This document shows positions 13,908 to 43,127 of a stretch of DNA of 64,000 nucleotides, piece by piece (the first letter of the stretch is position 1; each line of letters starts with the position of its first letter). Source of the DNA: Winslowiella toletana. Lineage in GTDB: Bacteria; Pseudomonadota; Gammaproteobacteria; Enterobacterales; Enterobacteriaceae. The translations under genes were made by a program, and so were the position numbers. Below the pieces are notes generated by a model. That model was not told where the DNA came from. It saw only the letters and a list, made by a program, of their open reading frames with translations, and made no database searches. The stretch lies in assembly GCF_032164335.1 (NCBI RefSeq), contig NZ_CP134152.1, forward strand, positions 4,216,001 to 4,280,000, given 5' to 3'.

Positions 13908-14015
13908 AACGCCCCGCACAATTTACAGAATAAAATTTTCTGTCATAAATTGTAGTCGTTTTATTTACAAAAATAGGAATATTCTTATAAAAAATTAAAG
14001 ATGTTTAAAATCCAT

Positions 14016-23662: not shown

Positions 23663-25204
23663 TTATTCTCTGCCAAGACTGAACGTTTCCCACAGGCTTA
23701 TTTTAGCGGCATTAAAACTAAAGCCGTTATTTACGTTCACTTTGTAACATCTCAGATAAACGTCATTGATGCCAAACGCGTATTTATTGCCTTTTAATCC
23801 GAACAGGCTGACCTTATCCGCGATATAGTCACCCAGATCGAAACGTTTGTTCTCTCTTAATACGTGATTTTCGGCAAGGCCAATACCATTTTTATAGCAG
23901 CTTAACGGCACGCTAATCCCCGCCAACTTCACGCTGAAAACCACCTGCTGATTGTCAACCATGGCGATTGTTACTGGTAGCAGCGGATTGGGATAAATTG
24001 CCGTCAGATTTTTATCAATGCTGATGCATTTCTGCAAAACCGTATCGTACAGCATCACATAGCCATGCGAAGATGTGATAAGCAATTGATCATCAAGGGA
24101 CGCTTTCAATCCGTCAATCACCGCTTTATTAATTTTCAGGTTTACCAGGTGGGTAATTCTGCGAGCATCGAAAGTCTGACGCACATCTTTTACCCATTTA
24201 GTGCCGGAAGGCCGCCAGAAGCACAGCGTTGAGATCGATAGTACCGGATGTTCTGCAATTTTCTTGCTGACCTGCGGATGATAAGTCAGCGGTACGCTGC
24301 TATCCGTCGGCGCTTCGTAGTCAATCACAATTCTGTCGATTTGCGTGTTGACCGGAGAGGGAATAAATATTTTCAGAAAGCTGGATAAATCAATATCACG
24401 ATACAGCGAAATAGATGCAGCGGTTTCATGACCACTCATCAATTTCAGATGTGATTTGGTGTTTTTCTTATTAATATAAAATCCGATCAGCGTCATTGGT
24501 TCAGAAATTTTAATCTCATCGTCCTGATTGAGAAATGCAAAAGTTTCCTGGAATAACGAGTTTTTTATTTCATATTTTTTATCTTCAGCATACTCTTCTG
24601 AGACATTGCGAATAATGAAATTTTCACTGTAATTAACATTATCACTCATAAAGCCCAGAGAACTTTTACTTTGCTCGTCTTCCAGCACCTGTGCAACCAT
24701 ACTACCAATAAAGTTGGCAATAAACTCGGTGGGATGCGGATCCATATCATATAAATTATCAATCAGCGAATTTGAGAATGCGTTAATATTTTCAATGATA
24801 TGTTTAAAACATAAGAACTGTGCTCCCAGCCGCCTGGCCAGCATTTCGCGGGTACGGTAAATGATAGTGGTATTATGCAATGTTGCCAGCAAAGGAATGG
24901 CGATAATAACCAGTTTGGTCTGGCTGGCAATGGTCGACAGGAATTCAAAATAGATATCATTATAGAAATTATAATTTTTAAATGAATTCGTTTTTAAAAA
25001 GTACTCTTCATCATTCGGCAAACTGTCAAAAAACACATAGTCGTAAACGGAGAAATCCATACGGGCAAACACCGAAAACTGTAAGCCGGGCGACGCACCG
25101 ATAGATAAGTTACTCACCTCAGAATCGACCAGACGATCGGACAATCCTTTGACCCAGCCGTTGCGGCGTACTGAATTCGATGTTCCTAAGATTAAAATTT
25201 TCAT
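23663..25204 (-). CDS. SGNH-like protein, Asp2-like by context (candidate glycan O-acetyltransferase/esterase)
   Basis: About 513 residues. The first ~170 look like an SGNH/GDSL hydrolase domain: block I ILGTSNS (Ser9 or Ser11 as possible nucleophile), a Gly-containing NLSIGASPG segment near 36, and a C-terminal DMDPHPTEF motif (Asp153/155, His157), close to but not exactly the usual DxxH. The remaining ~340 residues are beta-rich and unrecognised. The ATG at 25204 is preceded by GGAGAAGG; the TTG one codon upstream is unlikely. It starts 16 bp after the glycosyltransferase stop. In Gram-positive SRR adhesin systems the SGNH protein Asp2 O-acetylates adhesin GlcNAc; a similar job here is inferred from context only. 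Confidence 0.6.
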   Translation of the reverse strand: MKILILGTSNSVRRNGWVKGLSDRLVDSEVSNLSIGASPGLQFSVFARMDFSVYDYVFFDSLPNDEEYFLKTNSFKNYNFYNDIYFEFLSTIASQTKLVIIAIPLLATLHNTTIIYRTREMLARRLGAQFLCFKHIIENINAFSNSLIDNLYDMDPHPTEFIANFIGSMVAQVLEDEQSKSSLGFMSDNVNYSENFIIRNVSEEYAEDKKYEIKNSLFQETFAFLNQDDEIKISEPMTLIGFYINKKNTKSHLKLMSGHETAASISLYRDIDLSSFLKIFIPSPVNTQIDRIVIDYEAPTDSSVPLTYHPQVSKKIAEHPVLSISTLCFWRPSGTKWVKDVRQTFDARRITHLVNLKINKAVIDGLKASLDDQLLITSSHGYVMLYDTVLQKCISIDKNLTAIYPNPLLPVTIAMVDNQQVVFSVKLAGISVPLSCYKNGIGLAENHVLRENKRFDLGDYIADKVSLFGLKGNKYAFGINDVYLRCYKVNVNNGFSFNAAKISLWETFSLGRE

Positions 25205-25220
25205 CAAAGCACCTTCTCCG

Positions 25221-26831
25221 TTATACCGCTGAGTTATTATTATTGCGACTTATCTCAACCTGCATAAATAACTCACCCCAACGTTGGGAGAAGTCATTAG
25301 CCGTATAATTCTTTGCCAGCTTAGCGGCATTTTTTTGCATCGCCTTCAGGCCTTTACGATCTTTTAAAGCGCTAATCACCGACTGTGCGAATTGCTCATC
25401 CTGTTTATCTTCGACCAGAAAACCATTAACACCATCAACAATCATTTCCTCGGGGCCGTAATTAATTTTGTAGGAAACCACCGGACACTGATTTGCCAGT
25501 GCTTCCATTATCACCAGCCCATAACCCTCAGAGCGACTGGTAAACAGCATCAGATCGGCTGACTGATAGACTAAATCAACACTTTCGGTGTATTCACAGA
25601 TCTCAACATGGTTCGACAAATCATACTGCTCTATTGCCGCCTGCATTTTTGCCAGCTCGGAACCATAACCGTACAGCTTTAACGAGGCTTCCGGGATCGC
25701 CTGCACCACCCGGGAGAAGATGCGGATCAACTCCGGCAACCTTTTAACCGGATCAAAGCGCCCGACAGAGATGCAGCTAAAGGGCTTACGTTCGGCATTA
25801 TATTTTGCGATTTTTTTATCATAAACATGAGGTATTTCAACGCTGACATTATTGAATTTAAAGCGTTCCTCAGCCTCTTGCTTCTGCTTTTTAGTCAGAA
25901 AAACCAGCGCATCCAGTTGATGGGCATTGTCAAAATAGTGCTTATAGTGGCTGTTTACCCGCGAATGACTGTCCGCTGGGTTAACATAATGAGCAGCATG
26001 AATAGTACCGATATAAACATAGTTCGGTTTTTTATGCAAAAATAATGCCTGACTAAAATAAATCGCCCGATCAATAATAAAGTAGTAAAGCGTGTCATCG
26101 CGATTGTAGAAGGTGTCCAGTGCATGCAGAAACAGTTCTTTTTCTGACGTCAGCGTGGTTTCAATGAACCCTTGCGGATTAAACAGAATGATACTTTGCA
26201 GTTCACTGGACTTGTCATCCACCTTATAATTATTAATTATTTTTAGTTTACCGTCGGCATCAAACAGTGATACTGAGGTTATTTTTCCTTCGCTGATCTG
26301 TTGAATACAGCTTAATTTCTGCGCGGCATCGTATTTAGCGCGCATAATTATTTTATTATCGTTAAAATAATTTATATAGGACAGCGAACCGTCACTGCGC
26401 GTAATCTCATATCGCTTCTCAAACTTGCCTTTCTTAAAGATAAAATTATTATTAGTATCCTGCACATAACCTTCACTGGCAACCGGAGTATACGGCTTAA
26501 TCTCTCTGCCAGCATCGACATCGCCAGGCTGAATTTTTTGAAACAGTGAGTACACATTCTGAAAGCGAACCTGTTTACTGAGCACGCCATTCTCAATCAT
26601 ATTGTTATAGACGTGGCTAAGCTCAGCATCATACTCAACCGTAAGAATGGTGACATTATAGTCGCGCTGAGCGAGAATATTAGCTCTTTTCAGCATCGCC
26701 ATGACCAGGCCATTTTTCTTTAATCCCAACCGGGGATAAAGCATGATGATCTCTTTCTTCTCGTATGCTTTGCGGTCGCTCATATTGTCACCGGTCTCTT
26801 TTGCATTATTGAATGTGCTGTACATCATCAT
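25221..26831 (-). CDS. GT-B glycosyltransferase resembling SdgA/SdgB/GtfA (candidate Ser-Asp repeat glycosyltransferase)
   Basis: 536 residues. Residues ~27-100 form the first part of a GT-B N-domain. Residues ~130-230 are a run of short strands rich in Gly/Asp/Tyr turns (FKKGKFEKRYEI, GSLSYINYF, LFDADGKLKI), like the beta-meander insertion (DUF1975) seen in GtfA, TarM, TagE and staphylococcal SdgA/SdgB. Residues ~350-510 are the GT1/GT4 donor domain, with VGRFDPVKRLP and the EX7E motif from Glu435 to Glu443. Such enzymes add alpha-linked hexoses or HexNAc to Ser-rich proteins or to teichoic acids; Gram-negatives make no teichoic acid. It sits 30 bp after the HlyD gene. The start is uncertain: three ATGs at 26831-26823, or one at 26783. 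Confidence 0.78.
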   Translation of the reverse strand: MMMYSTFNNAKETGDNMSDRKAYEKKEIIMLYPRLGLKKNGLVMAMLKRANILAQRDYNVTILTVEYDAELSHVYNNMIENGVLSKQVRFQNVYSLFQKIQPGDVDAGREIKPYTPVASEGYVQDTNNNFIFKKGKFEKRYEITRSDGSLSYINYFNDNKIIMRAKYDAAQKLSCIQQISEGKITSVSLFDADGKLKIINNYKVDDKSSELQSIILFNPQGFIETTLTSEKELFLHALDTFYNRDDTLYYFIIDRAIYFSQALFLHKKPNYVYIGTIHAAHYVNPADSHSRVNSHYKHYFDNAHQLDALVFLTKKQKQEAEERFKFNNVSVEIPHVYDKKIAKYNAERKPFSCISVGRFDPVKRLPELIRIFSRVVQAIPEASLKLYGYGSELAKMQAAIEQYDLSNHVEICEYTESVDLVYQSADLMLFTSRSEGYGLVIMEALANQCPVVSYKINYGPEEMIVDGVNGFLVEDKQDEQFAQSVISALKDRKGLKAMQKNAAKLAKNYTANDFSQRWGELFMQVEISRNNNNSAV

Positions 26832-26861
26832 TTCTACGTTATTCCTGTTACCACAGAAGCA

Positions 26862-28082
26862 TTAACGCTCGCGCAGCGCTTCTTTTACCCGATTGAAAGG
26901 CTTCACCAGATATTCCATGATGGTTTTCTGGCCGGTTTTAATATCCACCGTGGCCACCATCCCCGGCACAATCGAAAAATGATGGCCGGCTGCGTTTTGC
27001 AGATAGTCGACGTTGGTGCGGATAAACACGCGATAGTAGTAAATCTCCGGTTTGACCTCATCCTGGATCGTGTCGGGGGAAATTCCTTCTACAACGCCTT
27101 CCATGCCGCCATAAATTGCATAGTCATAAGCCGAGATTTTTACCAGCGCGCGTTGGTCGGGATGAATAAAGGCGATATCGCGCGGCGACAGGCGCGCCTC
27201 AATCAGTAAGCGATCGTCTAATGGCACGATATCCATCAGTTCGCCATTCGGTGGAATGACGCCGCCGATGGTCATCACCTTGATATTTTTTACAATGCCG
27301 CGCACCGGCGAGCGCACCGTCAGACGGGTAACCGAGTCAGCGCGGCCTTTAATCACCTCGCTCAGCGAGTCAACTTCAGCGTTGCCCTTCGCCATCTCTT
27401 CACGAGCCTGCACATAATACTGCGAATAGAGATCGGTCAGTTTCAGATCGAGGTCGGCCTTTTGCCGCTGCAGACGTAACACCTCAACGCTACTGGCCGC
27501 ACCGCTTTTTGCCAGTTTCTGCGTAATCGCCAACTCGCGACTCGCCAGCGACAGCGACTCTTTAATCCGGGCAGCTGACTCAGTGAGCTGCTCGCGGCGC
27601 GTATTGTATAAACGCGTTTCCGAAGCCAGCAGTTCAGGAAAAGCCTCTAACTCTTGCGGAAATGTTAAGGGCTGATTATTCACTTCTGCACGCAAACGCG
27701 CAGTCGCGGCCAGTGAAGCACGGTAACGCGCGGCGCTCTCTCCAACATTCGATTCGTAACGCGTCGGATCAAGCCGTGCCACCACTTGCCCTGCCTGCAC
27801 CATCGCGCCTTCATGCACGCTGAGTTCGGTCAGCACGCCGCCATCCAGCAACTGCACCACCTGTTCACGCGTGCTGGGAATCACCTTGCCACTGCCGGTA
27901 GAAACCTCATCCAGTACGCCAAACCATGCCCATACGCCCGCCGACAATAGCAGGAAAAAGGTGATAATAATGATCCGCGCCGAGCCGGTATAACTCCTGC
28001 GGCTACCCTTCTCATCATCCAGATCGTCAAGATTAAAGGGTGAAGGTGCGGTGGTGGTGGTTTCAGCGGGCAGGTTTTTCAT
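26862..28082 (-). CDS. Type I secretion membrane fusion protein (HlyD/LapC family)
   Basis: About 406 residues: a short cytoplasmic start, one transmembrane helix (~36-56), a lipoyl/barrel-sandwich half (VIPSTREQVVQLLDGG), a long periplasmic coiled-coil hairpin (~110-260), a second lipoyl half (TVRSPVRGIVKNI) and a beta-barrel end. It bridges the inner-membrane ABC transporter and the outer-membrane channel. The ATG at 28082 is preceded by AGGAGG and lies inside the end of the ABC gene (20-bp overlap); the frame extends 21 codons further up but without a ribosome-binding site. Part of the adhesin export operon. Confidence 0.92.
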   Translation of the reverse strand: MKNLPAETTTTAPSPFNLDDLDDEKGSRRSYTGSARIIIITFFLLLSAGVWAWFGVLDEVSTGSGKVIPSTREQVVQLLDGGVLTELSVHEGAMVQAGQVVARLDPTRYESNVGESAARYRASLAATARLRAEVNNQPLTFPQELEAFPELLASETRLYNTRREQLTESAARIKESLSLASRELAITQKLAKSGAASSVEVLRLQRQKADLDLKLTDLYSQYYVQAREEMAKGNAEVDSLSEVIKGRADSVTRLTVRSPVRGIVKNIKVMTIGGVIPPNGELMDIVPLDDRLLIEARLSPRDIAFIHPDQRALVKISAYDYAIYGGMEGVVEGISPDTIQDEVKPEIYYYRVFIRTNVDYLQNAAGHHFSIVPGMVATVDIKTGQKTIMEYLVKPFNRVKEALRER

Positions 28083-30252
28083 CGGACGCCTCCTGCTGGG
28101 AAGTCGGGTTACGTGAGTTTTTAATCGCTTTATCTTTCGGCGCATCCATTACCAGTAGCCCCTCTTTTAGCACCACCACGCGATCCACCAGTTCCAGTAC
28201 CGCAGCACGGTGAGTCGCGACAATCAACGTTCGCCCAGCCAGCCACTGGCCCAGACGCTGAATAAACTCACGCTCGGTATGCTCATCCAGAGAAGCGGTT
28301 GGCTCATCCAGCAGCACAATATTTGGATCGCGCAGCAGCATACGCGCCAGCAATACCGACTGCCGCTGTCCTCCGGATAATCCGATACCCCCTTCCATCA
28401 CTATATGATCCAGCCCCAGCGGCAATCGCCGCACATAGTTGGCGGCACCACTGACTTCCAGCACCTCAAACAGCGCCTCATCGTCGATATTAGGTGCGCC
28501 CAGCATCAGGTTTTCACGCAGAGTGCCGTGAAAAAGGCGCGCGTTTTGCGTCAGCAGGCCGATATTACGGCGGATATCTGCAGTATCGATATGTGGCAGA
28601 CTCAGGTTATCCAGCCGCACTTCGCCGCTGACCAGCTCCATACCGCCAGCCATTGCTTTCAGCAGGGTAGATTTTCCGGCACCGTTACGCCCTAACAGCG
28701 CGATACGCTCGCCGGGCTGGACGGTCAGGCGACCAATTTTCAGCGGGAATACGGTATCTTCAGTGCGATAACGGAAACAGGCATCGGTAAACTGGTAATG
28801 GCCGTGCAGCACCGGGCAATGCACCCGCGTCTCTTCCCGACTGTTCTCAACCGGCAGATTCATGATGCTGTCCAGACCGGCTTTGGCCGCTTTCACCTGC
28901 TGCCAGCGCGCCAGTACGCCGCATAACTTGGTCATTGGCGAGATCATGCGCGAGGAAAGCAGTGAGGCAGCGACGATCGCACCGGTAGTGATATCGCCAT
29001 CCATCACCATCGGTGCACCAATCACCACCACCGAGGCATACACCAGGTTTTGTACCGTCACTCCCCAGTTGACCAGGCCCTGAGTCAGACGACGGGTCTC
29101 CACACCGGACTGCGCGGTGATCTGGATATAGCTGTTCCACTGTTGCAGGAAGCGATCTTCCGCCTGCATCAGCTTGATATCCTCAAGCCCCTGTACGCTT
29201 TCAACCAGCACGGCGTTACGCAGTGTGGATTCATGTAACGACCTGCGCGCCAGCGTGGCGAGCCGTTTCTGCAGCAATAGGCCCGGCACAATCATAATCA
29301 CCGCCGCCACTGGCGCGATCCATGCCAGATGCGGCGAGATAATCGCCAGAACAAACAGGAACAGGAAAAAAAATGGCATATCGACAATTGCGGTGACGGT
29401 GGTTGAGGTGATCATCTCGCGAATCTGCTCAAGTTCGCGCAGCTGTGAAATAAAGCTGCCGGTAGAGCGTGGGACGGCACTTTCACGCAGCCGCAGCGCG
29501 TGACCAAATACCCGATCGGAGACGCGCATATCGGCGCGTTTACCCAGCACGTCGGTAATATGTGAGCGGCCAAGCCGCAGCAAGAACGAGAACAGTACGG
29601 CGATTAACACTCCGCCAAACAATACATAAAGCGTCGGATAAGACTGCGCCGGAATCGCCCGATCATAAACCTGCATGGAAAACAGAATGCCGGACAGCGC
29701 CAAAATATTCACCAGCAGTGAAGCCAGCATCACATAGCCGTAAGGTTTAATGTCGCGCAGCACCAGCTTGCGCAGCCAGTCGGGCTTATTTTGCTCCAGA
29801 TAACGATCGACCCGGCTGTCTTTCGCCGCCGCAACCGGCCGGAACGCCACAACATGACGAATTTGCGGCAGCATCTGTTTAAATGACACAGGCGTCAGTT
29901 GCGGATCGTTAGCGAAGTTAAGCGTCAGCGTATCCTCACCATCAAACTGGCTAATCACTGCTACCTGGCCGTCAGACAATTCCACTGCCAGTGGCAGTCG
30001 CCATGCCGACATTTCTCGTGCCGGATCGTCCAGCATGCGCGCAGACAGACCCGCCTGGCGTGACAGGTTGGTTAATGCCCGCTCCAGTGGCAGCGCATGT
30101 TGCCATTCAGTTGTGGCATATAACATGCCGGGTGAGCAAGCCAGCCGGTAGTGGGTGGCAATCTGAATAATTGCGGCGGTCCACGATGCCAGCGGCTGAC
30201 CTTCAGGAGTATCGGGGGTTTCTGACGGAGTGACCGCCTGAAGTTGGGTCAT
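28063..30252 (-). CDS. Type I secretion ABC permease/ATPase (HlyB/LapB type)
   Basis: 729 residues. An N-terminal C39-like domain (~1-140) lacks the catalytic Cys (SWTAAIIQIATHY replaces the Cys-containing helix), so it should bind rather than cleave its substrate. Then come a six-helix membrane domain (~170-450) and an ATPase domain with Walker A GRNGAGKST, signature LSGGQRQ and Walker B VLLDEPTASLD. This is the usual layout of exporters of RTX- and Bap-type adhesins with a C-terminal signal. It overlaps the TolC-like gene by 4 bp (ATGA) and the HlyD gene by 20 bp. The likely cargo is the Ser-Asp adhesin encoded just upstream. Confidence 0.93.
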   Translation of the reverse strand: MTQLQAVTPSETPDTPEGQPLASWTAAIIQIATHYRLACSPGMLYATTEWQHALPLERALTNLSRQAGLSARMLDDPAREMSAWRLPLAVELSDGQVAVISQFDGEDTLTLNFANDPQLTPVSFKQMLPQIRHVVAFRPVAAAKDSRVDRYLEQNKPDWLRKLVLRDIKPYGYVMLASLLVNILALSGILFSMQVYDRAIPAQSYPTLYVLFGGVLIAVLFSFLLRLGRSHITDVLGKRADMRVSDRVFGHALRLRESAVPRSTGSFISQLRELEQIREMITSTTVTAIVDMPFFFLFLFVLAIISPHLAWIAPVAAVIMIVPGLLLQKRLATLARRSLHESTLRNAVLVESVQGLEDIKLMQAEDRFLQQWNSYIQITAQSGVETRRLTQGLVNWGVTVQNLVYASVVVIGAPMVMDGDITTGAIVAASLLSSRMISPMTKLCGVLARWQQVKAAKAGLDSIMNLPVENSREETRVHCPVLHGHYQFTDACFRYRTEDTVFPLKIGRLTVQPGERIALLGRNGAGKSTLLKAMAGGMELVSGEVRLDNLSLPHIDTADIRRNIGLLTQNARLFHGTLRENLMLGAPNIDDEALFEVLEVSGAANYVRRLPLGLDHIVMEGGIGLSGGQRQSVLLARMLLRDPNIVLLDEPTASLDEHTEREFIQRLGQWLAGRTLIVATHRAAVLELVDRVVVLKEGLLVMDAPKDKAIKNSRNPTSQQEASDEKPAR

Positions 30253-31700
30253 GGTTGAATCTCCACCGTTTGAATCGTCTGATTGTTCAGCGCGAAGGCT
30301 GAACGCATAAAGCCAGTGCTGTACAGGCAGTCAAGCTGTAAGGTGTGTATCTGACTAATGGTTTGCTGTTCGGTGAAGCGCGCCTGATAAATCTCCTGCT
30401 CGGAGTTGAGTACATCCAACAGTGGGCGCGTGCCCAGTTGCAGATACTGATCCTGATATAATTCGCGGGTTCGCTCTGCCAATTTCTGCTGACGACTCTG
30501 AATCACCAGCGTACGCGCCAGGCTCATCTCTTCATTTTGCGATTCGCTGAGTTTTTGCTGTGCATCAAGCTGGGCATTACGCACTGCCGCATTGGCAGAT
30601 TCGAGAGTATGTGCGGCGGCATTGCGACTGGCCGTCAGGCCTCCACCCTGATAAAGCGGCATTTCAACCTTAACCCAGGCACCATATTGGGTACGATCCA
30701 GTACCTGATTATTGGAATAGTTATTGGTCAGATAGTGGGTGACTTCAGGCTCTAATGAGATGGTTGGGGTCATCTGGGAGTTGGCGTTGTCGAGATTAGC
30801 CTGCGCCTGATTAACCTGAGCCCAGGCCGCCAGCACTGAAGGAATCAGTCGATAATCGGGCTGTGCCACCTGGCAAGATTTAGAGAGCGTAACGGGAAAT
30901 TTATTGCTGACTTCTTTCAGATCGCGCCAGCCAAGGTAGGTTGACAGTGTGGCACGCCAGCGATCCAGGTTAGCCTGGTATTGCATCAGCGTAGACCGCG
31001 CTCCCTCAATACGGGTTTCGGTTTGCACCACGTCGGATAATGAGCTGGCACCTTCATCGTTACGCTGACGCGCCAGCTTGCCGATATTATTCAGTGCTTC
31101 AAGCTGTGCCTCAGCAATTTTCACCAGTTGCTGATAGCCCTGCACCTGCACTACTGCTGCCGCAGTATCATGGGCGATGGTATCAATACTCACCAGCACA
31201 TTGGCCTGCTCTTTGGCCACGCTGGCTTCAGCCGCTCTTACCGAGCTGTCTACTTTGCCGAAGTCATACAGCATCTGTGACAACGACAGTACAAATGATG
31301 GGTTATAGCCGCTGTTGGTGCTGGAATTGGTCATGCCGTTGTTCATGCCGGCACTTATTTTTGGATAGTATTTTGATCGCGCGACATTGACGCCTTCAGC
31401 CTGCTCATACAGTTTACCGATCACCTCGGCAATATCGGGATGCCATTGCACCGCGCGATTAACCGCCTGCGTAATATCGAGTGTGGCGGGAGCATTTGGC
31501 GATTGTTGTGAAGCAACAGTGCCGTCTAAAGAGGGTAACTCCTGCTGAGCAAACATTTGCCCGGCACGGATCATATTTGCTGAAACCTCGCTGTCTGACG
31601 CAGCAAACAACGCGGTACTAAAAAAGAGGGCGAAGCAAAAGACAAATGCACTCGCCAGGTGGCAATAACTAAACATTGCTCGTAACAGAACTAAATTCAT
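30249..31700 (-). CDS. TolC-family outer membrane channel of the type I system
   Basis: 483 residues with an N-terminal signal peptide ending near AALFA-type Ala residues and two TolC/OEP repeats rich in heptad-like Gln/Ala/Asn. Recognisable stretches are VNVARSKYYPKI, LSLSQMLYDFGKV and LDVLNSEQEIYQAR. It forms the trimeric outer-membrane tunnel. The ATG at 31700 follows GGTGGATG at a good distance; a Met at residue 9 is an alternative. It lies 80 bp downstream of the adhesin stop and is coupled to the ABC gene, so it is a dedicated channel rather than housekeeping TolC. Confidence 0.92.
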   Translation of the reverse strand: MNLVLLRAMFSYCHLASAFVFCFALFFSTALFAASDSEVSANMIRAGQMFAQQELPSLDGTVASQQSPNAPATLDITQAVNRAVQWHPDIAEVIGKLYEQAEGVNVARSKYYPKISAGMNNGMTNSSTNSGYNPSFVLSLSQMLYDFGKVDSSVRAAEASVAKEQANVLVSIDTIAHDTAAAVVQVQGYQQLVKIAEAQLEALNNIGKLARQRNDEGASSLSDVVQTETRIEGARSTLMQYQANLDRWRATLSTYLGWRDLKEVSNKFPVTLSKSCQVAQPDYRLIPSVLAAWAQVNQAQANLDNANSQMTPTISLEPEVTHYLTNNYSNNQVLDRTQYGAWVKVEMPLYQGGGLTASRNAAAHTLESANAAVRNAQLDAQQKLSESQNEEMSLARTLVIQSRQQKLAERTRELYQDQYLQLGTRPLLDVLNSEQEIYQARFTEQQTISQIHTLQLDCLYSTGFMRSAFALNNQTIQTVEIQP

Positions 31701-31731
31701 TAATCATCCACCGCAGATTAAGAGTGAAGAT

Positions 31732-31747
31732 GGCACATCCTTGTGCC
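31732..31747. promoter_or_regulatory. Small hairpin between adhesin and secretion genes
   Basis: Arms GGCAC and GTGCC around a six-base loop, in the 80-bp gap between the adhesin stop and the TolC-like start. It could partly attenuate readthrough or mark an mRNA end. No U-tract is seen. Confidence 0.35.
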
Positions 31748-31780
31748 GGTTTATTCCCTATAAGTTCATAACAACTACCG

Positions 31781-34700
31781 TTAAACGTCCGTATTCAGGT
31801 GTTGCAACAGCTCTTCCAGCGATACGTTTACTCCTTCCAGAGTAATCAGCTGAGTACTTTCAAAGTTCGTACCCTGCCCATCGCGGTCAATCGATACGAT
31901 GGTATTTTCGCCATCAAACTCGACTGAAACGAAGTTTCCGATGGTGCCGCCCGCTCCATTCAGGCCAATCAACAGCTCGCCAATATCGATCTGATCATCC
32001 TGTGCCAGCGAGAAATCAGTCCAGGTATCGGTGCCGTTTCCACCGGTCGCATCGGCATTATCCAGCAGGTTATAGACCACGGTGTCGCCACCGCCACCCA
32101 AGGTAAAGGTGTCATCATTCGGCGTACTGTTGACGGTATCCGCATAGTTGCTACCGGTGATCTGCATATTCAGATCGATAGTCAGCGATGCACTGGATGT
32201 TGAACCGTCCGTTGCCGTCAGGGTGTAGTCGAATACCTCCTTCTGCGTCATGGTCGACAGATCAATGTTGGCGTCACGTACATAGCTGTAACTGCCATCT
32301 GCATTGATGGTTAAGGTGCCGTAGAGGCCATCTACCGTCGCGCTGGTTGCATTGCGGTCGTAAGGGTTCAGTGCGGCAGAGTCTGAGTCGTTGGCATTGC
32401 TGATAGCGATCCTGGTACCTACCGAGATCAAACTATCCGCTACACCATCCGCACCCGAGCCGTCGAGGATATTGCCGGTTACCGTGGCTGAAGCGCCGGT
32501 ATGGAACTCATCCACATGCGTCTCAGTACCTCTTACCGATCCCCTCACCGTTGTCAGCCCCAGTACTGAAGAGCTACCGGTAACGCGCAGTGTGTAGTTG
32601 CCTGCTTCCAGATCCAGACCCGAAACGTTAACCGTTGCGGCACCGCCAATAATTCCAGATGGCGCTACGCTGCCGGTACGCACTGAAGTTCCGCTACTGT
32701 TAACAATGGCCCACGTTATATTTGTACCGGTTAGTGCAACACCCGTGACGGTGAAGCCCAGCGTAATATTGTGAAGTACCGAATCCGCCTCAACCGTGAA
32801 GCCACCGGAACCTGTCGCTGAGTTGGTACCTACTACCGTGGTCCAACTTGCTGACGCGATATTCGCGAAGTTCTCCACTTCCTGAACGACGGTTGCACTG
32901 GTTGCCAAATCAACACTGTCATCAACCGCTTGCAGCGTGCCCGGTTGCAGATCGATGGTCAGCGTTGCCGTACTGGTTGAGCCATTTGGCGTTTTCAGCT
33001 CATAGGTGAAGGTTTCATCACCGGTAATACTGCCTGCCGCCAGACCTGCATTCAGCGTATAGGTGTAATTACCCAGCGCATCGATGGTTAGCGTGCCGTA
33101 CTGACCGGTAATGTTGGTGACACCACTTGCATTAATTCCGGTGCCATCGACTTCACTGACCAACGTGCCGGCCGGTGCGGTATCGCCACCTGCCCCTTCA
33201 CTATCGCCATCGATCACATTACCCGTCACCGAACTGCCCGTAGTGACATAGCCATGTGTAGTGTCCTGCAAGACATTCAGGGTGAAACCAGTTAACACCG
33301 ACACGCCATTCGCTGCATTCAACAAGAAGACATAGTCACCTTCCGGCAGAGTCAGCGTCAGCTGGCCTGATGTTCCTGCTACCAATCCGACTTGCAGCCA
33401 GTTATTCACAACATCGATCCGCTCGTAATTTCCGCTATCCGGATTGAGCTGATAAATGTTGAGGTTATAGGTTGAGAGTAATGACACTCCTAACGACGAT
33501 GCCTGGAAGGTAAGCGTACGAGATGTACCCTCCGCTACCGAGAAGGTCGACTGTGCGTCAAGTTCAGCAACCGACAGATTCAGCACATTGCCCAGCCCCA
33601 CTGTTGCCAGTGTTGCGCCGCTCTGCGATGACGGTCCGTTATTTACCGTTGTCTCTTCCGTTTCAATATCCAGCGTAACGTTATCGTCTACGGCATTAAC
33701 GCTGTCTGAATCGCTGTCGCTATCGGAATCACTGTCGCTATCGGAGTCGCTGTCGGAATCGGAATCGCTGTCGGAATCGGAATCGCTGTCGCTATCAGAG
33801 TCGCTGTCGGAATCGGAGTCGCTGTCGCTATCAGAGTCGCTGTCGGAATCGGAATCGCTGTCGCTATCAGAATCGCTGTCGGAATCGGAATCGCTGTCGG
33901 AATCAGAGTCGCTGTCGCTATCGGAGTCACTGTCGGAGTCAGAATCGCTGTCGGAATCAGAGTCGCTGTCGCTATCGGAATCGCTGTCGGAGTCAGAGTC
34001 GCTGTCGCTGTCTGAATCGCTGTCGGAATCAGAATCACTGTCGCTATCGGAATCGCTGTCGCTATCAGAATCGCTGTCGGAATCAGAATCGCTGTCGCTA
34101 TCGGAATCGCTGTCGCTATCAGAGTCGCTGTCGGAATCAGAGTCGCTGTCGGAATCGGAGTCACTGTCGGAATCAGAATCGCTGTCGGAGTCAGAATCGC
34201 TGTCGCTATCGGAGTCGCTGTCGGAATCGGAATCGCTGTCGCTATCGGAATCGCTGTCGGAGTCAGAATCACTGTCGCTCTCTGAGTCGCTGTCGCTATC
34301 AGAATCACTGTCGGAGTCAGAGTCGCTGTCGCTGTCTGAATCGCTGTCGGAATCAGAATCGCTGTCGCTATCGGAATCGCTGTCGGAATCAGAGTCGCTG
34401 TCGCTATCGGAATCGCTGTCGGAGTCAGAGTCGCTGTCTGAATCGCTGTCGGAATCGGAGTCGCTGTCGGAGTCAGAATCGCTGTCGCTATCAGAATCGC
34501 TGTCGGAATCGGAGTCGCTGTCGCTATCAGAGTCGCTGTCGGAATCAGAGTCGCTGTCGGAGTCAGAATCGCTGTCGCTGTCTGAATCGCTGTCGCTATC
34601 AGAATCGCTGTCGGAATCGGAATCGCTGTCGCTATCAGAGTCGCTGTCGGAATCGGAGTCGCTGTCGCTATCAGAGTCGCTGTCGGAATCGGAATCGCTG

Positions 34701-37700
34701 TCGCTATCAGAATCGCTGTCGGAATCGCTGTCGGAGTCAGAATCACTGTCGCTATCAGAATCACTGTCGGAGTCAGAATCACTGTCGCTATCGGAGTCGC
34801 TGTCGCTATCAGAGTCGCTGTCGGAATCGGAATCGCTGTCGCTATCAGAGTCGCTGTCGGAATCAGAGTCGCTGTCGCTATCGGAGTCACTGTCGGAGTC
34901 AGAGTCGCTGTCGCTGTCGCTGTCTGAGTCACTGTCGGAATCAGAATCGCTGTCGCTATCGGAATCGCTGTCGGAATCAGAATCGCTGTCGCTGTCTGAG
35001 TCACTGTCGGAATCAGAATCGCTGTCGCTATCGGAATCACTGTCGGAATCAGAGTCGCTGTCGCTATCGGAGTCACTGTCGGAGTCAGAATCGCTGTCGG
35101 AATCAGAGTCGCTGTCGCTATCGGAATCGCTGTCGGAGTCAGAGTCGCTGTCGCTGTCTGAATCGCTGTCGGAATCAGAATCGCTGTCGCTATCGGAATC
35201 ACTGTCGGAATCAGAATCGCTGTCGCTATCAGAGTCGCTGTCGGAATCGGAATCGCTGTCGCTATCGGAGTCACTGTCGGAATCGGAATCGCTGTCGCTG
35301 TCTGAGTCGCTGTCGGAATCAGAATCGCTGTCGCTGTCTGAGTCGCTGTCGGAATCAGAGTCGCTGTCGGAATCGGAATCGCTGTCGCTATCGGAGTCAC
35401 TGTCGGAATCAGAGTCGCTGTCGCTATCGGAGTCACTGTCGGAGTCAGAGTCGCTGTCGCTGTCTGAGTCACTGTCGGAATCGGAATCGCTGTCGCTATC
35501 GGAATCGCTGTCGGAATCAGAGTCGCTGTCGCTATCGGAATCGCTGTCGGAATCGGAGTCGCTGTCGGAGTCAGAATCGCTGTCGCTGTCTGAATCGCTG
35601 TCGCTATCGGAATCACTGTCGCTGTCTGAATCGCTGTCGGAATCGGAATCGCTGTCGGAATCAGAGTCGCTGTCGGAGTCAGAGTCGCTGTCGCTATCTG
35701 AATCACTGTCGGAGTCAGAATCGCTGTCGCTATCTGAATCGCTGTCGCTATCGGAGTCACTGTCGGAATCAGAATCGCTGTCGCTGTCTGAGTCGCTGTC
35801 GGAATCAGAATCGCTGTCGCTATCGGAATCACTGTCGCTGTCTGAATCGCTGTCGCTATCAGAGTCACTGTCGGAATCGGAATCGCTGTCGCTATCGGAG
35901 TCACTGTCGGAATCGGAATCGCTGTCGCTGTCTGAATCGCTGTCGCTATCAGAATCACTGTCGCTGTCGGAATCGCTGTCGCTATCAGAATCACTGTCGG
36001 AGTCAGAGTCGCTGTCGGAATCAGAATCGCTGTCGCTGTCTGAATCGCTGTCGCTATCAGAGTCGCTGTCGCTATCGGAGTCACTGTCGGAATCGGAATC
36101 GCTGTCGCTATCGGAATCACTGTCGCTGTCTGAATCGCTGTCGGAATCGGAATCGCTGTCGGAATCAGAGTCGCTGTCGGAGTCAGAGTCGCTGTCGCTA
36201 TCTGAATCACTGTCGGAGTCAGAATCGCTGTCGCTATCTGAATCACTGTCGGAATCGGAGTCGCTGTCGGAATCAGAGTCGCTGTCGCTATCGGAATCGC
36301 TGTCGGAATCAGAGTCGCTGTCGCTATCGGAGTCACTGTCGGAGTCAGAGTCGCTGTCGCTGTCGCTGTCTGAGTCACTGTCGGAATCAGAATCGCTGTC
36401 GCTATCGGAATCGCTGTCGGAATCAGAATCGCTGTCGCTGTCTGAGTCACTGTCGGAATCAGAATCGCTGTCGCTATCGGAATCACTGTCGGAATCAGAG
36501 TCGCTGTCGGAATCGGAGTCACTGTCGGAGTCAGAATCGCTGTCTCAGAGTCTGTCGCTATCGGAATCGCTGTCGGAATCAGAATCGCTGTCGCTATCGG
36601 AATCGCTGTCGGAATCGGAATCGCTGTCGCTATCGGAGTCACTGTCGGAATCAGAGTCGCTGTCGCTATCGGAGTCACTGTCGGAGTCAGAGTCGCTGTC
36701 GCTGTCTGAGTCACTGTCGGAATCGGAATCGCTGTCGCTATCGGAATCGCTGTCGGAATCAGAGTCGCTGTCGCTATCGGAATCGCTGTCGGAATCGGAG
36801 TCGCTGTCGGAGTCAGAATCGCTGTCGCTGTCTGAATCGCTGTCGCTATCGGAATCACTGTCGCTGTCTGAATCGCTGTCGGAATCGGAATCGCTGTCGG
36901 AATCAGAGTCGCTGTCGGAGTCAGAGTCGCTGTCGCTATCTGAATCACTGTCGGATCAGAATCGCTGTCGCTATCTGAATCGCTGTCGCTATCGGAGACT
37001 GTCGGAATCAGAATCGCTGTCGCTGTCTGAGTCGCTGTCGGAATCAGAATCGCTGTCGCTATCGGAATCACTGTCGCTGTCTGAATCGCTGTCGTCGCTG
37101 TCGGAATCGGAATCGCTGTCGCTATCGGAGTCACTGTCGGAATCGGAATCGCTGTCGCTGTCTGAATCGCTGTCGCTATCAGAATCACTGTCGCTATCTG
37201 TCGAGAATCACTGTCGGAGTCAGAGTCGCTGTCGGAATCAGAATCGCTGTCGCTGTCGCTCGGAATCGGAGTCGCTGTCGCTATCAGAGTCGCTGTCGCT
37301 ATCGGAGTCACTGTCGGAATCGGAATCGCTGTCGGAATCAGAATCGCTGTCGGAATCGGAATCGCTGTCTCAGAGTCGCTGTCGGAGTCAGAGTCGCTGT
37401 CGCTATCTGAATCACTGTCGGAGTCAGAATCGCTGTCGCTATCTGAATCACTGTCGGAATCGGAGTCGCTGTCGGAATCAGAGTCGCTGTCGCTATCGGA
37501 ATCGCTGTCGGATCAGAGTCGCTGTCGCTATCGGAATCGCTGTCGGAGTCAGAATCACTGTCGGAATCGGAGTCACTGTCGGAATCAGAATCGCTGTCGC
37601 TATCGGAGTCGCTGTCGGAGTCAGAGTCGCTGTCGCTGTCTGAATCGCTGTCGGAATCAGAGTCGCTGTCGCTATCGGAATCGCTGTCGGAATCAGAATC

Positions 37701-40700
37701 ACTGTCGCTGTCTGAATCGCTATCGGAATCGCTGTGAATCACTGTCTGTCTGAATCGCTATCGGAATCGCTGTCGCTGTCAGAATCAGAGTCGCTGTCGC
37801 TATCGGAGTCACTGTCGGAATTAGAATCGCTGTCGGAATCAGAATCGCTGTCGCTGTCTGAGTCGCTGTCGGAGTCAGAGTCTGTCGCTGTCTGAATCGC
37901 TGTCGGAATCAGAATCACTGTCGCTATCGGAATCGCTGTCGCTATCAGAGTCGCTGTCGCTATCGGAGTCACTGTCGGAATCGGAGTCGCTGTCGCTGTC
38001 AGAATCGCTGTCGCTCGGAATCGCTGTCGGAGTCAGAATCGCTGTCGCTATCGGAGTCACTGTCGCTATCGGAATCGCTGTCGGAGTCAGAATCGCTGTC
38101 GGAATCAGAGTCGCTGTCGCTATCGGAGTCACTGTCGCTGTCTGAATCGCTGTCGGAATCAGAATCGCTGTCGCTATCGGAAGTCACTGTCGGAATCAGA
38201 ATCGCTGTCGCTATCGGAATCACTGTCGCTGTCATCGCTGTCGGAATCAGGATCGCTATCGCTGAATCGCTGTCAGAATCGCTGTCGTCAGAATCAGAGT
38301 CGCTGTCGCTATCGGAGTCACTGTCGCTATCGGAATCGCTGTCGCTGTCGCGAATCGCTGTCGGAATCAGAGTCGCTATCGCTATCTGAGTCACTGTCGG
38401 AATCAGAGTCGCTGTCGGAATCAGAATCGCTGTCGCTATCGGAGTCACTGTCGGAATCGAAATCGCTGTCGGAATCGCTGTCGCTGTCTGAGTCGCTGTC
38501 GGAATCAGAATCGCTGTCGCTATCGGAGTCACTGTCGGAATCAGAATCGCTGTCGCTATCGGAGTCACTGTCGGAATCGGAGTCGCTGTCGCTGTCAGAA
38601 TCGCTGTCTGTCAGAATCGCTGTCGAAGTCGCTGTCGCTATCGGAGTCACTGTCGGAATCGGAGTCGCTGTGAATCGCTGTCGGAGTCAGAATCACTGTC
38701 GCTATCGGAATCGCTGTCGGAATCGGAATCGGAGTCACTGTCGGAATCGGAATCGCTGTCGCTATCGGAGTCACTGTCGGAATCGGAGTCGCTGTCGCTG
38801 TCGCTGTCTGAATCACTGTCGGAATCGGAATCGCTGTCGGAATCAGAGTCGCTGTCGCTGTCTGAATCGCTGTCTGAATCGCTGTCGGAATCAGAATCGC
38901 TGTCGGAAGAGTCGCTGTCGCTATCGGAATCGCTGTCGGAATCAGAATCGCTGTCGCTGTCTGAGTCGCTGTCGGAATCGGAGTCACTGTCGGAATCAGA
39001 GTCGCTGTCGCTATCGGAGTCACTGTCGGAGTCAGAGTCGCTGTCGCTATCAGAATCACTATCGCTGTCTGAATCGCTGTCGCTATCTGAGTCGCTGTCG
39101 GAATCAGAGTCGCTGTCGCTGTCTGAATCGCTGTCTGAATCAGAATCACTGTCGCTATCAGAGTCGCTGTCGGAATCAGAATCACTGTCGCTATCAGAGT
39201 CGCTGTCGCTATCGGAGTCACTGTCGGAATCGGAATCGCTGTCGCTGTCTGAATCGCTGTCGCTATCTGAGTCGCTGTCGGAATCAGAGTCGCTGTCGGA
39301 ATCAGAGTCGCTGTCGCTATCGGAATCACTGTCGCTGTCTGAGTCGCTGTCGCTATCAGAGTCACTGTCGGAATCGGAATCGCTGTCGGAGTCAGAATCG
39401 CTGTCGCTGTCTGAGTCGCTGTCGCTATCAGAATCGCTGTCGGAATCAGAATCACTGTCGGAATCGGAGTCGCTATCGGAATCGCTGTCGGAGTCAGAAT
39501 CGCTGTCGCTATCGGAGTCGCTGTCGCTGTCTGAATCGCTGTCGCTATCGGAGTCACTGTCGGAATCGGAGTCGCTGTCGCTATCGGAATCGCTGTCGCT
39601 ATCAGAGTCACTGTCGCTGTCTGAATCGCTGTCGGAATCGGAGTCGCTGTCGCTGTCTGAGTCGCTGTCGGAATCGGAGTCACTGTCGGAATCAGAATCG
39701 CTGTCGGAGTCAGAATCACTGTCGCTATCGGAATCACTGTCGGAATCGGAATCGCTGTCGCTATCGGAGTCACTGTCGGAATCGGAGTCGCTGTCGCTGT
39801 CGGAATCGCTGTCGCTGTCTGAGTCGCTGTCGGAATCGGAATCACTGTCGGAGTCAGAATCACTGTCGCTCTCTGAGTCGCTGTCGGAATCAGAATCGCT
39901 GTCGGAGTCAGAATCGCTATCGGAATCGCTGTCAGAATCAGAATCACTGTCCGAGTCTGAATCGTCAATAATTGGCGCTGTTACATTCGCTGCATCAGAA
40001 GTATTACTTGCGGCATCAGTCAGTGTAACTGCAAGGATCCCCCCCGCTACCTGGGCCGGACTCAGCGTAACAGAGAAGTTGCCGTCATCATCGACCGAAC
40101 CACTACCGATGATATTACCCTCGGAATCCTCTACAGAAACGGTAGTTCCTGGCTCACCTTTACCGGTCAGTATGGTGCCATCTTCAGAGACATCAAGAGC
40201 GGTCGGCGGCAGCGGCGCAGTGGTATCTCCAGCCGTTACTTCAGCCGAAGGTGAGATATTGCCCGCTGCGTCAGTCAGCGTGACGCCTAGCTTTTCACCG
40301 TTAGTCTGTGCCGGATTTAGTTCGACCAGGAAGTTGCCAGCGTCGTCGACCGTACCGGTACCGATGATGTTGCCATTAGGATCCCTGACGGTGACAGTAG
40401 TACCGGGTTCACCCCGGCCAGTATGCGTAGTGCCGTCTTCAGAAACAAACAGATCGGTTGGCGGCAGCGGTGCGGTGGTATCGTCAGCAACCACTTCAGC
40501 AACAGGAGAAATATTGCCTGCCGGATCGGTCAGCGTGACGTCAAGAATTTCGCCGTTAGTCTCAGCCGGATCCAGATCGACTGTGAAGTTACCGTCTTCA
40601 TCAACCAGGCCGGTGCCGATGGTATTGCCATCCTCATCGGTGACGGTCACGGTAGTGCCAGGCTCGCCGCGTCCACTGAGCGTAGTGCCGTCTTCAGAGA

Positions 40701-42033
40701 CATCCAGATCGGTTGGTGGCAGCGGTGCGGTGGTATCGCCAGCAGTGACTTCAGCGACAGGAGAAATATTGCCCGCCGCATCAGTTAAGGTGACATCGAG
40801 TAGTTGACCGTTGGTCTGCGCCGGATTCAGATCGACCGTAAAGTTACCTTCATCATCGACTGTGCCGGTCCCGATGGTATTACCCTCTGCATCGGTGACG
40901 GTCACGGTAGTGCCGGGCTCACCGCGGCCGCTAAGCGTGGTGCCGTCTTCAGAGACATCCAAATCGGTTGGAAGCAGCGGTGCGGTGCTGTCACCTGCAG
41001 TCACCTCAGCGACCGCCGAAACATTGCCCGCCGCGTCGGTCTGCGTGACATCCAGGATTTCGCCATTGGTTTGCGCCGGATCCAGGTTGACGGTGAAATT
41101 ACCATCCTCATCAACCGTACCGGTACCAATGATATTGCCCAGGGCATCTCTGACGATAACAGTATCACCTGCTTCGCCTCTGCCGCTTAACGTGGTGCCA
41201 TCTTCAGACACGCTGAGATCTGTAGGGGCATCTGGTGCATCAGTGTCTGAATCGCTGTCAGAATCAGAATCAGAATCACTGTCGCTGTCGCTGTCGGAGT
41301 CAGAATCACTGTCAGAATCACTTTCTGAGTCAGAATCTGAGTCACTCTCCGAGTCAGAGTCGCTATCGGAATCGCTGTTATCCGAATCGCTGTCAGAATC
41401 AGAATCGCTGTCAGAGTCAGAATCGCTGTCAGAGTCAGAATCGCTATCAGAGTCGCTGTCGGAGTCGGAATCGCTGTTATCCGAATCACTGTCGGAGTCA
41501 GAATCACTGTCCGAATCTGAGTCGCTCTCGGAATCGGAATCGGAATCGGAATCGGAATCGGAATCGGAGTCACTGTCGGAGTCAGAATCGCTGTCGTTCG
41601 ACAGATCGCGTGAATCACCGTCAGAAGAGTTAGCCGCCGCAGCCAAACCGAGAAAACCTAAACCACCGGCTCCAAGGAAGGCCGCAGTGCTGGCACTTGT
41701 CTCGGTGCCATAAAGCAGCCCTTCAATGTCAGCGATTGAGGTAAATTCAAAACCCGGTCCCGGATTCTCAATCCACCATAATGCGCCAGTCTGATCCTGT
41801 ATCACCAGATCGCTGATATTTCCTTCCGCATCAGCGACAAAGAAATTCTGAATAACAACTTTCTCTCCGGACTTGAGAGTGACGACTAAGTTATTTTGAT
41901 CGCGGGTAAGGGAGGCAATGTCCTCTCTGTTAAGTTGGAGCGTGACGACACTGGGCGAAGTTATACTAACTTCACTTCCATTTATACTGGAGGCTGAACC
42001 GCTATCTTTTGCGGTTACCTTGATTTCATTCAT
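31781..42033 (-). CDS. Giant BapA-like type I-secreted adhesin with Ser-Asp repeats (frame broken in the repeat)
   Basis: About 3,400 residues if read through. Residues 1-140 are a BapA/LapF prefix domain ([34 protein letters not shown], then a Gly/Ala-rich hydrophobic stretch). Next come a short Ser-Asp linker (~141-264), five ~85-residue Ig-like domains (~265-688), a huge Ser-Asp tract (~2,085 residues), and a C-terminal region with VCBS-like domains ([14 protein letters not shown]). It ends in a VCA0849-type type I secretion target ([31 protein letters not shown]). The N-terminal part is open from 42033 to 38647 and the C-terminal frame is open from about 36,950 to 31781. Between them several indels shift the Ser-Asp frame, so as given the gene is split. 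GGGAGTG precedes the ATG. Expected role: biofilm or surface adhesion, exported by the TolC/ABC/HlyD genes that follow. Confidence 0.85.
33711..39966 (-). repeat. Ser-Asp dipeptide repeat tract
   Basis: About 6.25 kb of hexamer-like repeats (TCN-GAY / AGC-GAY codons) encoding (Ser-Asp)n, over 1,000 dipeptides. Codons are varied (TCC, TCT, TCA, AGC; GAT, GAC), so the tract is held at protein level rather than being a simple DNA repeat. Long stretches recur: text around 35,370-35,700 reappears 1,242 bp further on. The antisense frame reads as (Ser-Glu-Ser-Leu)n and is a shadow. Confidence 0.92.
36947..38675 (-). other. Cluster of frame-shifting indels within the Ser-Asp tract
   Basis: Small deletions or insertions break the Ser-Asp frame repeatedly here, e.g. 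GGATCAGA near 36,955, GGAGACTG near 36,993, TATCTGTCGAGAA near 37,197, GCTCGGAA near 37,258 and 38,013, and GCTGTGAATC near 37,733 and 38,668. The flanking Ser-Asp sequence (33.7-36.9 and 38.9-39.9 kb) is free of them. The N-terminal and C-terminal halves are therefore in different frames. Confidence 0.85.
39969..41240 (-). repeat. Five tandem Ig-like domains of the adhesin
   Basis: Five ~85-residue copies, each with [20 protein letters not shown], a VTVTDxxGNxIGTG strand, a VDxxGNFTVxLxPAQTNG segment and a [20 protein letters not shown] end. These are the bacterial Ig-like modules common in BapA/Bap adhesins. The fifth copy, next to the long Ser-Asp tract, is the most diverged. Confidence 0.88.
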
Positions 42034-42434: not shown

Positions 42435-43127
42435 TTAGTGCAGTAGTTTAACCACAGCGTCAGCTTTCACAGGCTTCCAGTGATACCCCTGCATCCCCTT
42501 AACATCCAGCGCCCGCAGCTGCTCCTCATGCCTTGCGTGCTGAATTCCTTCAACGATGATAACGTCACAAAAAGCATTGAGATGAGAGATTAAGTCGCGA
42601 AACGCATTACTTTTTCCATACTGCCAGAAAAAATTCTTCTCAATCTTTACGTATTCAAACTTACCCTTCATCACCATGGTTAAGTTTGTGTTACCCGCAC
42701 CAAAATCATCCAGCCATAGGGGGCAAACTTTTGTCAGTTCTCTTAATAATAGGGATTCATCATTATCAGCATCACGTGAGAAAAAATTACATATTTCAAA
42801 ACGTAGAAGAGGCATCTGTGCGATTAATTGTTGCAACCTGAAATTATTGGTTATTTCATTGGCGATGACTTTATCAATGTGAACAGATATTTTCGGCAGG
42901 GTATTATTCTTTTGATAAATATTATCAAGCAGAGCCAACTGCTGATTAAATATTGACAAACGTTCAGACTGAGAAATCTGCAAAAAACCATTTTCTTTGT
43001 CTTGTTTGCAATAAAAAGATCTATTGGATGAGACAAACTTAGTCAAAAGTTCATAGGCAATTAGCGATCCAGAAAAATCACGTATCGGTTCCAGAATGAA
43101 CTGGTAATTATCATTATTTTCATTCAT
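42435..43127 (-). CDS. Stand-alone EAL-domain protein, probably degenerate
   Basis: 230 residues, EAL domain only, no membrane segment or sensor. The EAL motif is ELL (Glu26). The metal-site Asn is replaced by His83 (SVHIDK), while Glu111, Asp140-Asp141 (LDDFGAG), Lys161 (KIEK), Glu193 (VEGI) and Gln213 (QGY) remain. Loss of the Asn and the altered EAL motif suggest weak or no c-di-GMP phosphodiesterase activity; YdiV-type EAL proteins act instead by protein binding. It lies ~400 bp upstream of the giant adhesin in the same direction, a natural position for a regulator of biofilm genes. The ATG follows an AAGG leader. Confidence 0.82.
   Translation of the reverse strand: MNENNDNYQFILEPIRDFSGSLIAYELLTKFVSSNRSFYCKQDKENGFLQISQSERLSIFNQQLALLDNIYQKNNTLPKISVHIDKVIANEITNNFRLQQLIAQMPLLRFEICNFFSRDADNDESLLLRELTKVCPLWLDDFGAGNTNLTMVMKGKFEYVKIEKNFFWQYGKSNAFRDLISHLNAFCDVIIVEGIQHARHEEQLRALDVKGMQGYHWKPVKADAVVKLLH

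Follow-up and report, generated by a model that had tools for sequence, protein, structure and literature searches.

Organization of the locus

The window analysed here, a stretch of 64,000 nucleotides from Winslowiella toletana (NZ_CP134152.1, positions 4,216,001 to 4,280,000), carries on its minus strand, from 42033 to 23663, one run of genes encoding a very large BapA-type adhesin with long Ser-Asp repeats, a TolC-type outer membrane protein, an ABC exporter, an HlyD-type membrane fusion protein, a glycosyltransferase and an SGNH-like protein. From the adhesin to the SGNH-like protein, successive genes first lie 80 bases apart, then overlap by 4 and by 20 bases, and then lie 30 and 13 bases apart, which agrees with the one-directional, closely spaced run described in the initial annotation. 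A scan for promoters and terminators returned nothing terminator-like in the interval that separates the SGNH gene from the gene behind it, and the end of the operon is not marked thereby.

The adhesin extends over 42033-31781. Its N-terminus is a BapA prefix-like domain (BapA_N, PF22783; 41680..42033; 141.4 bits, cut-off 27), which is followed by a first Ser-Asp tract of about 117 residues (41245..41598), by five Big_6/Ca_tandemer Ig-like repeats (39970..41250; PF17936, 460.1 bits in 5 stretches; NF033510, 5 stretches; TRF period 255) and by the main Ser-Asp tract of about 2,080 residues (33701..39966). The C-terminus (31781..33690) comprises an adhes_GNV_Cterm domain (NF045619, 385.2 bits, cut-off 180) and a type I secretion target domain (TIGR03661, T1SS_VCA0849; 50.2 bits, cut-off 17.6). 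With BapA_N and adhes_GNV_Cterm both over cut-off, the protein belongs to the BapA type, and with about 2,200 Ser-Asp residues in total it bears out the earlier description of a BapA-like adhesin with a repeat of some 2,000 residues. In the two clean stretches of the repeat that were read, Ser or Asp accounts for 1,079 of 1,083 and 430 of 431 codons. The serine codons are of both the AGY and the TCN kind (AGC, TCC, TCT, AGT and TCA); therefore, the pattern is conserved at the level of the protein, beyond a DNA repeat alone, and the tract is no chance pattern.

The exporter is encoded by the genes for the TolC-type protein (30249..31700; TIGR01844, 315.8 bits, cut-off 225.15), the LssB-type ABC exporter of type I secretion (28063..30252; TIGR03375, 772.2 bits, cut-off 693.1) and the HlyD-type fusion protein (26862..28082; TIGR01843, 309.7 bits, cut-off 208.65), the start of the last being set at the ATG that agrees with the start in W. 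iniecta. Since all three proteins and the C-terminal signal domain of the adhesin score over their cut-offs, the system is one of type I secretion.

The glycosyltransferase

The gene following that of the HlyD-type protein (25221..26831) encodes a family 4 glycosyltransferase (GT4) of 536 amino acids, of the SdgA/SdgB/GtfA/TarM kind. It passes the Glycos_transf_1 family (PF00534; 131.1 bits, cut-off 26.4), and its top three NCBIfam matches, among the best 25 listed of 36 families, are SdgA (NF047880; 209.6 bits, E 6.7e-62), SdgB (NF047881; 181.8 bits, E 2e-53) and GtfA (TIGR02918; 117.5 bits, E 6.5e-34). The solved structure closest to it by sequence is that of SdgB (E 3.2e-42), followed by TarM and then by GtfA (Gtf1), the TarM match being near full length (residues 25-522 of the window enzyme, E 1.1e-30). 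The window enzyme aligns with SdgB from residue 149 onward (SdgB chain 122-219), and the match to the SdgA profile begins at position 93. The inserted beta domain (DUF1975), which the initial annotation described as a beta-meander insertion at about 130-230, is accordingly a putative one, seen at the level of alignment.

The roles of the SdgB residues in the donor site and in the groove for the Ser-Asp peptide have been described (PMC8561734). The donor-site residues His246, Arg329, Lys334, Glu406 and Glu414 of SdgB correspond to H278, R358, K363, E435 and E443 of the window enzyme. These five letters are identical across all 11 rows of the alignment and hence not specific to SdgB; they point to a working GT4 site and give no sign of a Ser-Asp acceptor. 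In the peptide groove, Tyr124, Asn126, Phe128 and Arg137 are kept (Y152, N154, F156 and R164). The groove Asn is found also in three staphylococcal enzymes that branch together, one of them encoded on an S. epidermidis plasmid two genes from sdrF, one beside an Ig-like protein and one without such a neighbour, and is replaced by Asp, Thr or Glu in the other six comparison rows.

In the glycosyltransferase tree, which was built from relatives other than SdgA and SdgB themselves, the enzymes of the window and of W. iniecta form a deep branch of their own. The initial annotation had called the enzyme SdgA/GtfA-like. As a statement of kinship this holds, the nearest profiles being SdgA, SdgB and GtfA and the nearest structure SdgB; the cut-offs of these families are not reached, and by the measures of sequence the enzyme is a relative of the SdgA/SdgB group and not a member of it. 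No GtfB-like gene was found among the operon proteins scanned, to which the search was confined. The G+C content is 42% in the glycosyltransferase gene and 41% in the SGNH gene (together 23663-26831) versus 51-56% in the three exporter genes, which fits a later addition of the two. Downstream of the operon, the window and W. iniecta have different genes.

The SGNH-like protein

The last gene of the run (23663..25207) encodes a protein of 514 amino acids, a putative glycan esterase or O-acetyltransferase. The SGNH consensus consists of a Ser in block I, a Gly in block II, an Asn in block III and Asp-x-x-His in block V. In an alignment of four rows (the window protein, its W. iniecta counterpart at 90% identity, and two remote plasmid proteins at 21% and 25%), Ser10, Gly37 and Asp156 are invariant, and Asn65 occurs in three. 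Block V reads D156-P-H158 in the window protein, with His two residues after Asp, and D-x-x-H in the remote relatives. The protein matched no Pfam family at E up to 10, no NCBIfam family at E up to 0.1 and no PDB sequence at E up to 10. The SGNH assignment made earlier is thus sustained by the motifs only, a family match being absent in these searches.

The SGNH gene occurs in 2 of 37 genomes of the genus, those of the window and W. iniecta, and in 1 of 246 genomes of the family, the window's own, W. iniecta lying outside that sample. The initial annotation had named, as a case that would speak against it, a glycosyltransferase/SGNH pair kept mostly with lipopolysaccharide or capsule genes. 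No such distribution was found: in both occurrences the two genes stand side by side in the adhesin operon. The remote relatives, two weak matches at E up to 0.01, are encoded on plasmids, and one of them (25%) is part of an E. coli plasmid locus for polysaccharide export. In viral contigs, four stretches fit a pattern for SGNH relatives and none encodes a relative.

Comparison of BapA-type loci

Among 246 genomes of the Genome Taxonomy Database (GTDB) family, 44, including that of the window, had a match to NF045619, 42 of them over cut-off. The comparison comprised 45 loci, namely the window, the best locus of each of the other 43 genomes and W. iniecta, with one locus per genome. A Ser-Asp tract was counted where windows of 40 residues held at least 75% Ser plus Asp. 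A gene like the window glycosyltransferase follows that of the HlyD-type protein in 9 of the 45 loci, and in a tenth (G599) the front half of a fusion protein alone is present; a glycosyltransferase dissimilar to that of the window could escape this screen. A Ser-Asp tract was found in nine of these ten loci and in none of the other 35, of which 7 have an adhesin cut by a contig end (at G430, which has the gene, the adhesin is likewise cut, and at G009 the contig ends soon after the HlyD gene).

The free enzyme with an SGNH gene is limited to the window and W. iniecta; the other loci with the glycosyltransferase, from six other genera, carry it fused behind a further front domain. The fusion measures 1,024 to 1,062 residues between stops in the six loci where it is whole and is split in two frames in G466. 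SdgA and SdgB are the best profiles of its glycosyltransferase half in the three fusions scanned, and SdgB is the best solved structure for the one scanned. The free enzyme and the fusion are separate deep lineages of the tree. In W. iniecta, the order TolC-ABC-HlyD-glycosyltransferase-SGNH is the same, with 87% identity for the glycosyltransferase and 90% for the SGNH protein, and Ser-Asp coding stands at the ends of two contigs. The adhesin of G116 is a single unbroken frame of 3,389 residues.

On the exporter tree, the glycosyltransferase label requires four changes; three independent pairs lie on starred branches, and the Ser-Asp tract agrees in all three. Loci in which neither the gene nor the tract was found stand near loci that have both: G569 (cut by a contig end) and G442 beside G448, and G274 and G529 beside the window pair, the branch of the latter not being starred. 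Moreover, the genome of the window encodes two further, very large BapA_N adhesins (G000:C1:3291397 and 3740354) each accompanied by separate ABC and HlyD genes and, for one of the two, by a TolC match. They have no Ser-Asp tract and no glycosyltransferase gene after their HlyD genes; standing in the same cell, they provide the simplest control for the link between the enzyme and the tract. That glycosyltransferases of this kind accompany Ser-Asp tracts, both across the 45 loci and within the genome, is well supported by these sequence comparisons.

Wider searches

The genome-contig search returned the free glycosyltransferase at one locus, in W. iniecta, and at E 1e-25 it was found in 1 of 369 genomes of the class, the window's own. 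The SdgA profile, with at most three candidates scored per genome, gave nine matches at E 1e-30 in 394 genomes of the order. In the window and in G116, the match lies at an adhesin locus; in G228, the glycosyltransferase stands at a contig edge and no adhesin was found in the 5 kb read; and five of the remaining six matches cover the back half alone (profile position 264 or later).

The front domain of the fusion was matched in 7 of the 394 genomes. In five of them, from two further families, it lies beside other large adhesin-like genes (L137 16210-19386, L143 2019-5228, and likewise L135, L139 and L141; genomes G371, G090, G061, G380 and G121), and in both loci scanned by Pfam (L137 and L143) a Mur ligase stands behind it in a fusion. 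The domain has no Pfam family and shows a faint likeness to GH76, GH127 and GH88. At the four front-domain loci of family f25, a TolC-ABC-HlyD set is found nearby on the opposite strand. In G378 the front domain stands alone, and the 19.9 kb read there showed no such adhesin-like gene. A possible role of the fusions with a Mur ligase is the ligation of amino acids to an adhesin.

Discussion

Gene order, homology, the conserved donor-site residues and the co-occurrence of the glycosyltransferase with Ser-Asp tracts are the observations from which we infer the acceptor, the sugar, the cytoplasmic timing, an acetylation step and any effect on adhesion. Taken together, they make it likely that the operon produces a very large surface adhesin and glycosylates its Ser-Asp stalk in the cytoplasm before type I export. 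The type I signal stands at the C-terminus of the adhesin; the whole chain would therefore be completed before it leaves the cell, and the enzyme could act along it. For SdgB, action along the Ser-Asp chain by means of a positive tract has been proposed (PMC8561734). The SdgB-like GT4 enzyme of the window would similarly take the disordered, acidic tract along its inserted domain and place a sugar on the serines, most likely N-acetylglucosamine (GlcNAc) from UDP-GlcNAc. O-acetylation of the sugar by the SGNH-like protein may follow, and the glycosylated chain would exit by way of the TolC-ABC-HlyD channel, whose genes stand between those of the adhesin and of the two enzymes.

Several observations weigh against this interpretation. 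The scores of the glycosyltransferase are far under the curated cut-offs of 800 bits for SdgA and SdgB and 574.6 bits for GtfA. In the groove, Arg132 of SdgB stands opposite a gap, Lys134 is replaced by Ile, and Arg101 is probably replaced by Phe, as judged through the staphylococcal rows of the 11-row alignment, which does not hold SdgB itself; with these residues lost, a part of the groove that anchors the Asp residues is missing. Moreover, the W. iniecta enzyme has Trp at the position of Tyr152. G599 has a Ser-Asp tract without the glycosyltransferase half of the fusion, and G430 has the gene and shows no tract over the 1,343 residues that can be read up to the contig end. Fisher's exact test gives 1.1e-8 with G430 counted as a miss, and 3.7e-7 with G599 counted among the loci without the enzyme (8 of 9 versus 1 of 36), and both values ignore the relatedness of the loci and are too strong; the independent pairs number only three (sign test, p 0.25). 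The adhesin, finally, is not a single open frame in this assembly: between 38671 and 36955 the Ser-Asp coding hops fourteen times among the three frames, so that the main tract consists of 15 successive stretches, and one further stop lies near 36550.

Asp2 O-acetylates GlcNAc on GspB in a reaction coupled to accessory-Sec transport (PMC5578698), and by analogy it is a fair guess, and only plausible, that the SGNH-like protein does the same on the adhesin. It is nearly as probable that it removes acyl groups, trims glycans or serves as a non-enzymatic partner. SGNH folds include esterases, and the Asp of the window protein precedes the His by two residues instead of three, which would suit such roles; Asp2 itself, an esterase-like acetyltransferase working on an adhesin, is the precedent on the other side.

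The broken frame of the adhesin could also mean that the locus is decaying, with the downstream enzymes as remnants. However, the frames of the exporter, the glycosyltransferase and the SGNH protein are open, the two enzymes are 87-90% identical to those of W. iniecta, and the G116 adhesin is uninterrupted. The Ser-Asp pattern continues in another frame at each hop and the coding is clean outside the broken region, as a consensus error in one middle stretch predicts. An assembly error in the long repeat is therefore the probable cause, and decay is unlikely.

Slightly less likely still is that the substrate of the glycosyltransferase and the SGNH protein is a surface polysaccharide or lipid, their place beside the adhesin being due to chance or shared regulation. 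GT4 enzymes commonly are enzymes of polysaccharide synthesis, and the E. coli plasmid relative of the SGNH protein is encoded upstream of polysaccharide-export and GT2/GT92 genes. This is opposed by the same-direction gene order with gaps of 30 and 13 bases, by the coincidence of tract and enzyme in the 45 loci and inside the genome, and by the nearest profiles, which are those of adhesin glycosyltransferases. Least likely is hitch-hiking, in which the enzyme and the tract are functionally unconnected and a small number of lineages inherited both, as the four changes and three independent pairs would allow, since two unlike glycosyltransferase lineages accompany the tract and near loci with neither were found.

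Glycosylation of the Ser-Asp stalk before type I export, as favoured here, would resemble known systems in part. Staphylococcal Sdr proteins are exported by Sec and anchored by sortase. With SdgA and SdgB and their Ser-Asp-repeat adhesins (ClfA, SdrC-E), the window shares a GT4 enzyme encoded near such an adhesin, the top profile and structure, the donor residues and, as judged by alignment, the putative inserted domain. It differs in its Gram-negative type I export, in one glycosyltransferase gene instead of two, in the additional SGNH gene, and in an enzyme on a deep separate branch below the family cut-offs. TarM matches over the full length; however, its acceptor is teichoic acid, its score is lower than that of SdgB, and an enzyme encoded beside a CDP-glycerol gene branches away from the window enzyme. 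The BapA, Bap and LapF adhesins of type I secretion are like the window adhesin in its ends and exporter, which pass curated cut-offs, but differ in the tract, which was not seen in the readable part of 35 of the 45 loci.

Serine-rich-repeat adhesins are glycosylated in streptococci. In Gram-negative bacteria, HMW1C and EtpC glycosylate two-partner secreted adhesins in the cytoplasm before export; these enzymes differ from that of the window in glycosyltransferase family and in secretion route. In the accessory-Sec system of GtfA-GtfB and Asp2, the addition of GlcNAc is followed by an esterase-like O-acetyltransferase (PMC5578698), and the glycosyltransferase and SGNH-like protein of the window may be its counterpart, although export is by a type I system and not by accessory Sec, the operon proteins scanned include none like GtfB, and the glycosyltransferase scores higher to SdgA and SdgB than to GtfA. 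The likeness to Asp2 would be one of activity.

Glycosylation of Ser-Asp repeats is known in staphylococci (PMC8561734, PMC5230774), where the sugar coat shields the adhesins from host proteases (PMC8561734). What seems to be new is the same kind of enzyme with type I secreted adhesins; in the open-licence part of PubMed Central, by titles and the starts of abstracts, no work on glycosylated Ser-Asp-repeat adhesins with type I export was found. If the interpretation is true, Ser-Asp-repeat glycosylation crosses the Gram divide and secretion routes, and chains with a heavy load of sugar can leave through a type I exporter. The gene pair can be tested directly in a non-model bacterium, and a genomic rule follows for wide testing, namely that a BapA-type adhesin with a Ser-Asp tract should have a glycosyltransferase gene behind that of the HlyD-type protein. 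More tentatively, and on the basis of the front domain-Mur ligase fusions beside adhesin-like genes, giant type I adhesins of Enterobacterales might have unrecognised, dedicated cytoplasmic modifying enzymes: free or fused SdgA-like glycosyltransferases for Ser-Asp tracts, and front domain-Mur ligase fusions for a possible addition of amino acids. In that case, stalks modified beforehand would generally leave by type I export, in parallel to the logic of accessory Sec.

Some neighbouring features were also recorded. In G116, the fusion gene is followed by a gene for a secreted-looking protein (L014 8223-9239; 319 amino acids from the ATG) with an HEFFH zinc-protease-like motif and no Pfam match. 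A Yoonia plasmid record (L013, NZ_CP151763.1, 11.5 kb), with teichoic-acid and TarM-like genes, is staphylococcal in look and possibly a contamination; its glycosyltransferase was used solely as one row of the tree and the alignment. Directly upstream of the adhesin, on the same strand, lies a gene for an EAL-domain protein (42435..43127; Pfam EAL, 53.4 bits, cut-off 31.3), which is present upstream in W. iniecta as well (L162 3257-3949, 60.4 bits); the protein may connect the operon with signalling by cyclic-di-GMP, or it may be a regulator that has degenerated. At the other end of the window, a minus-strand open frame of 4,640 residues (3-13922) runs past the window start and appears to encode another giant surface protein, which by eye resembles an autotransporter.

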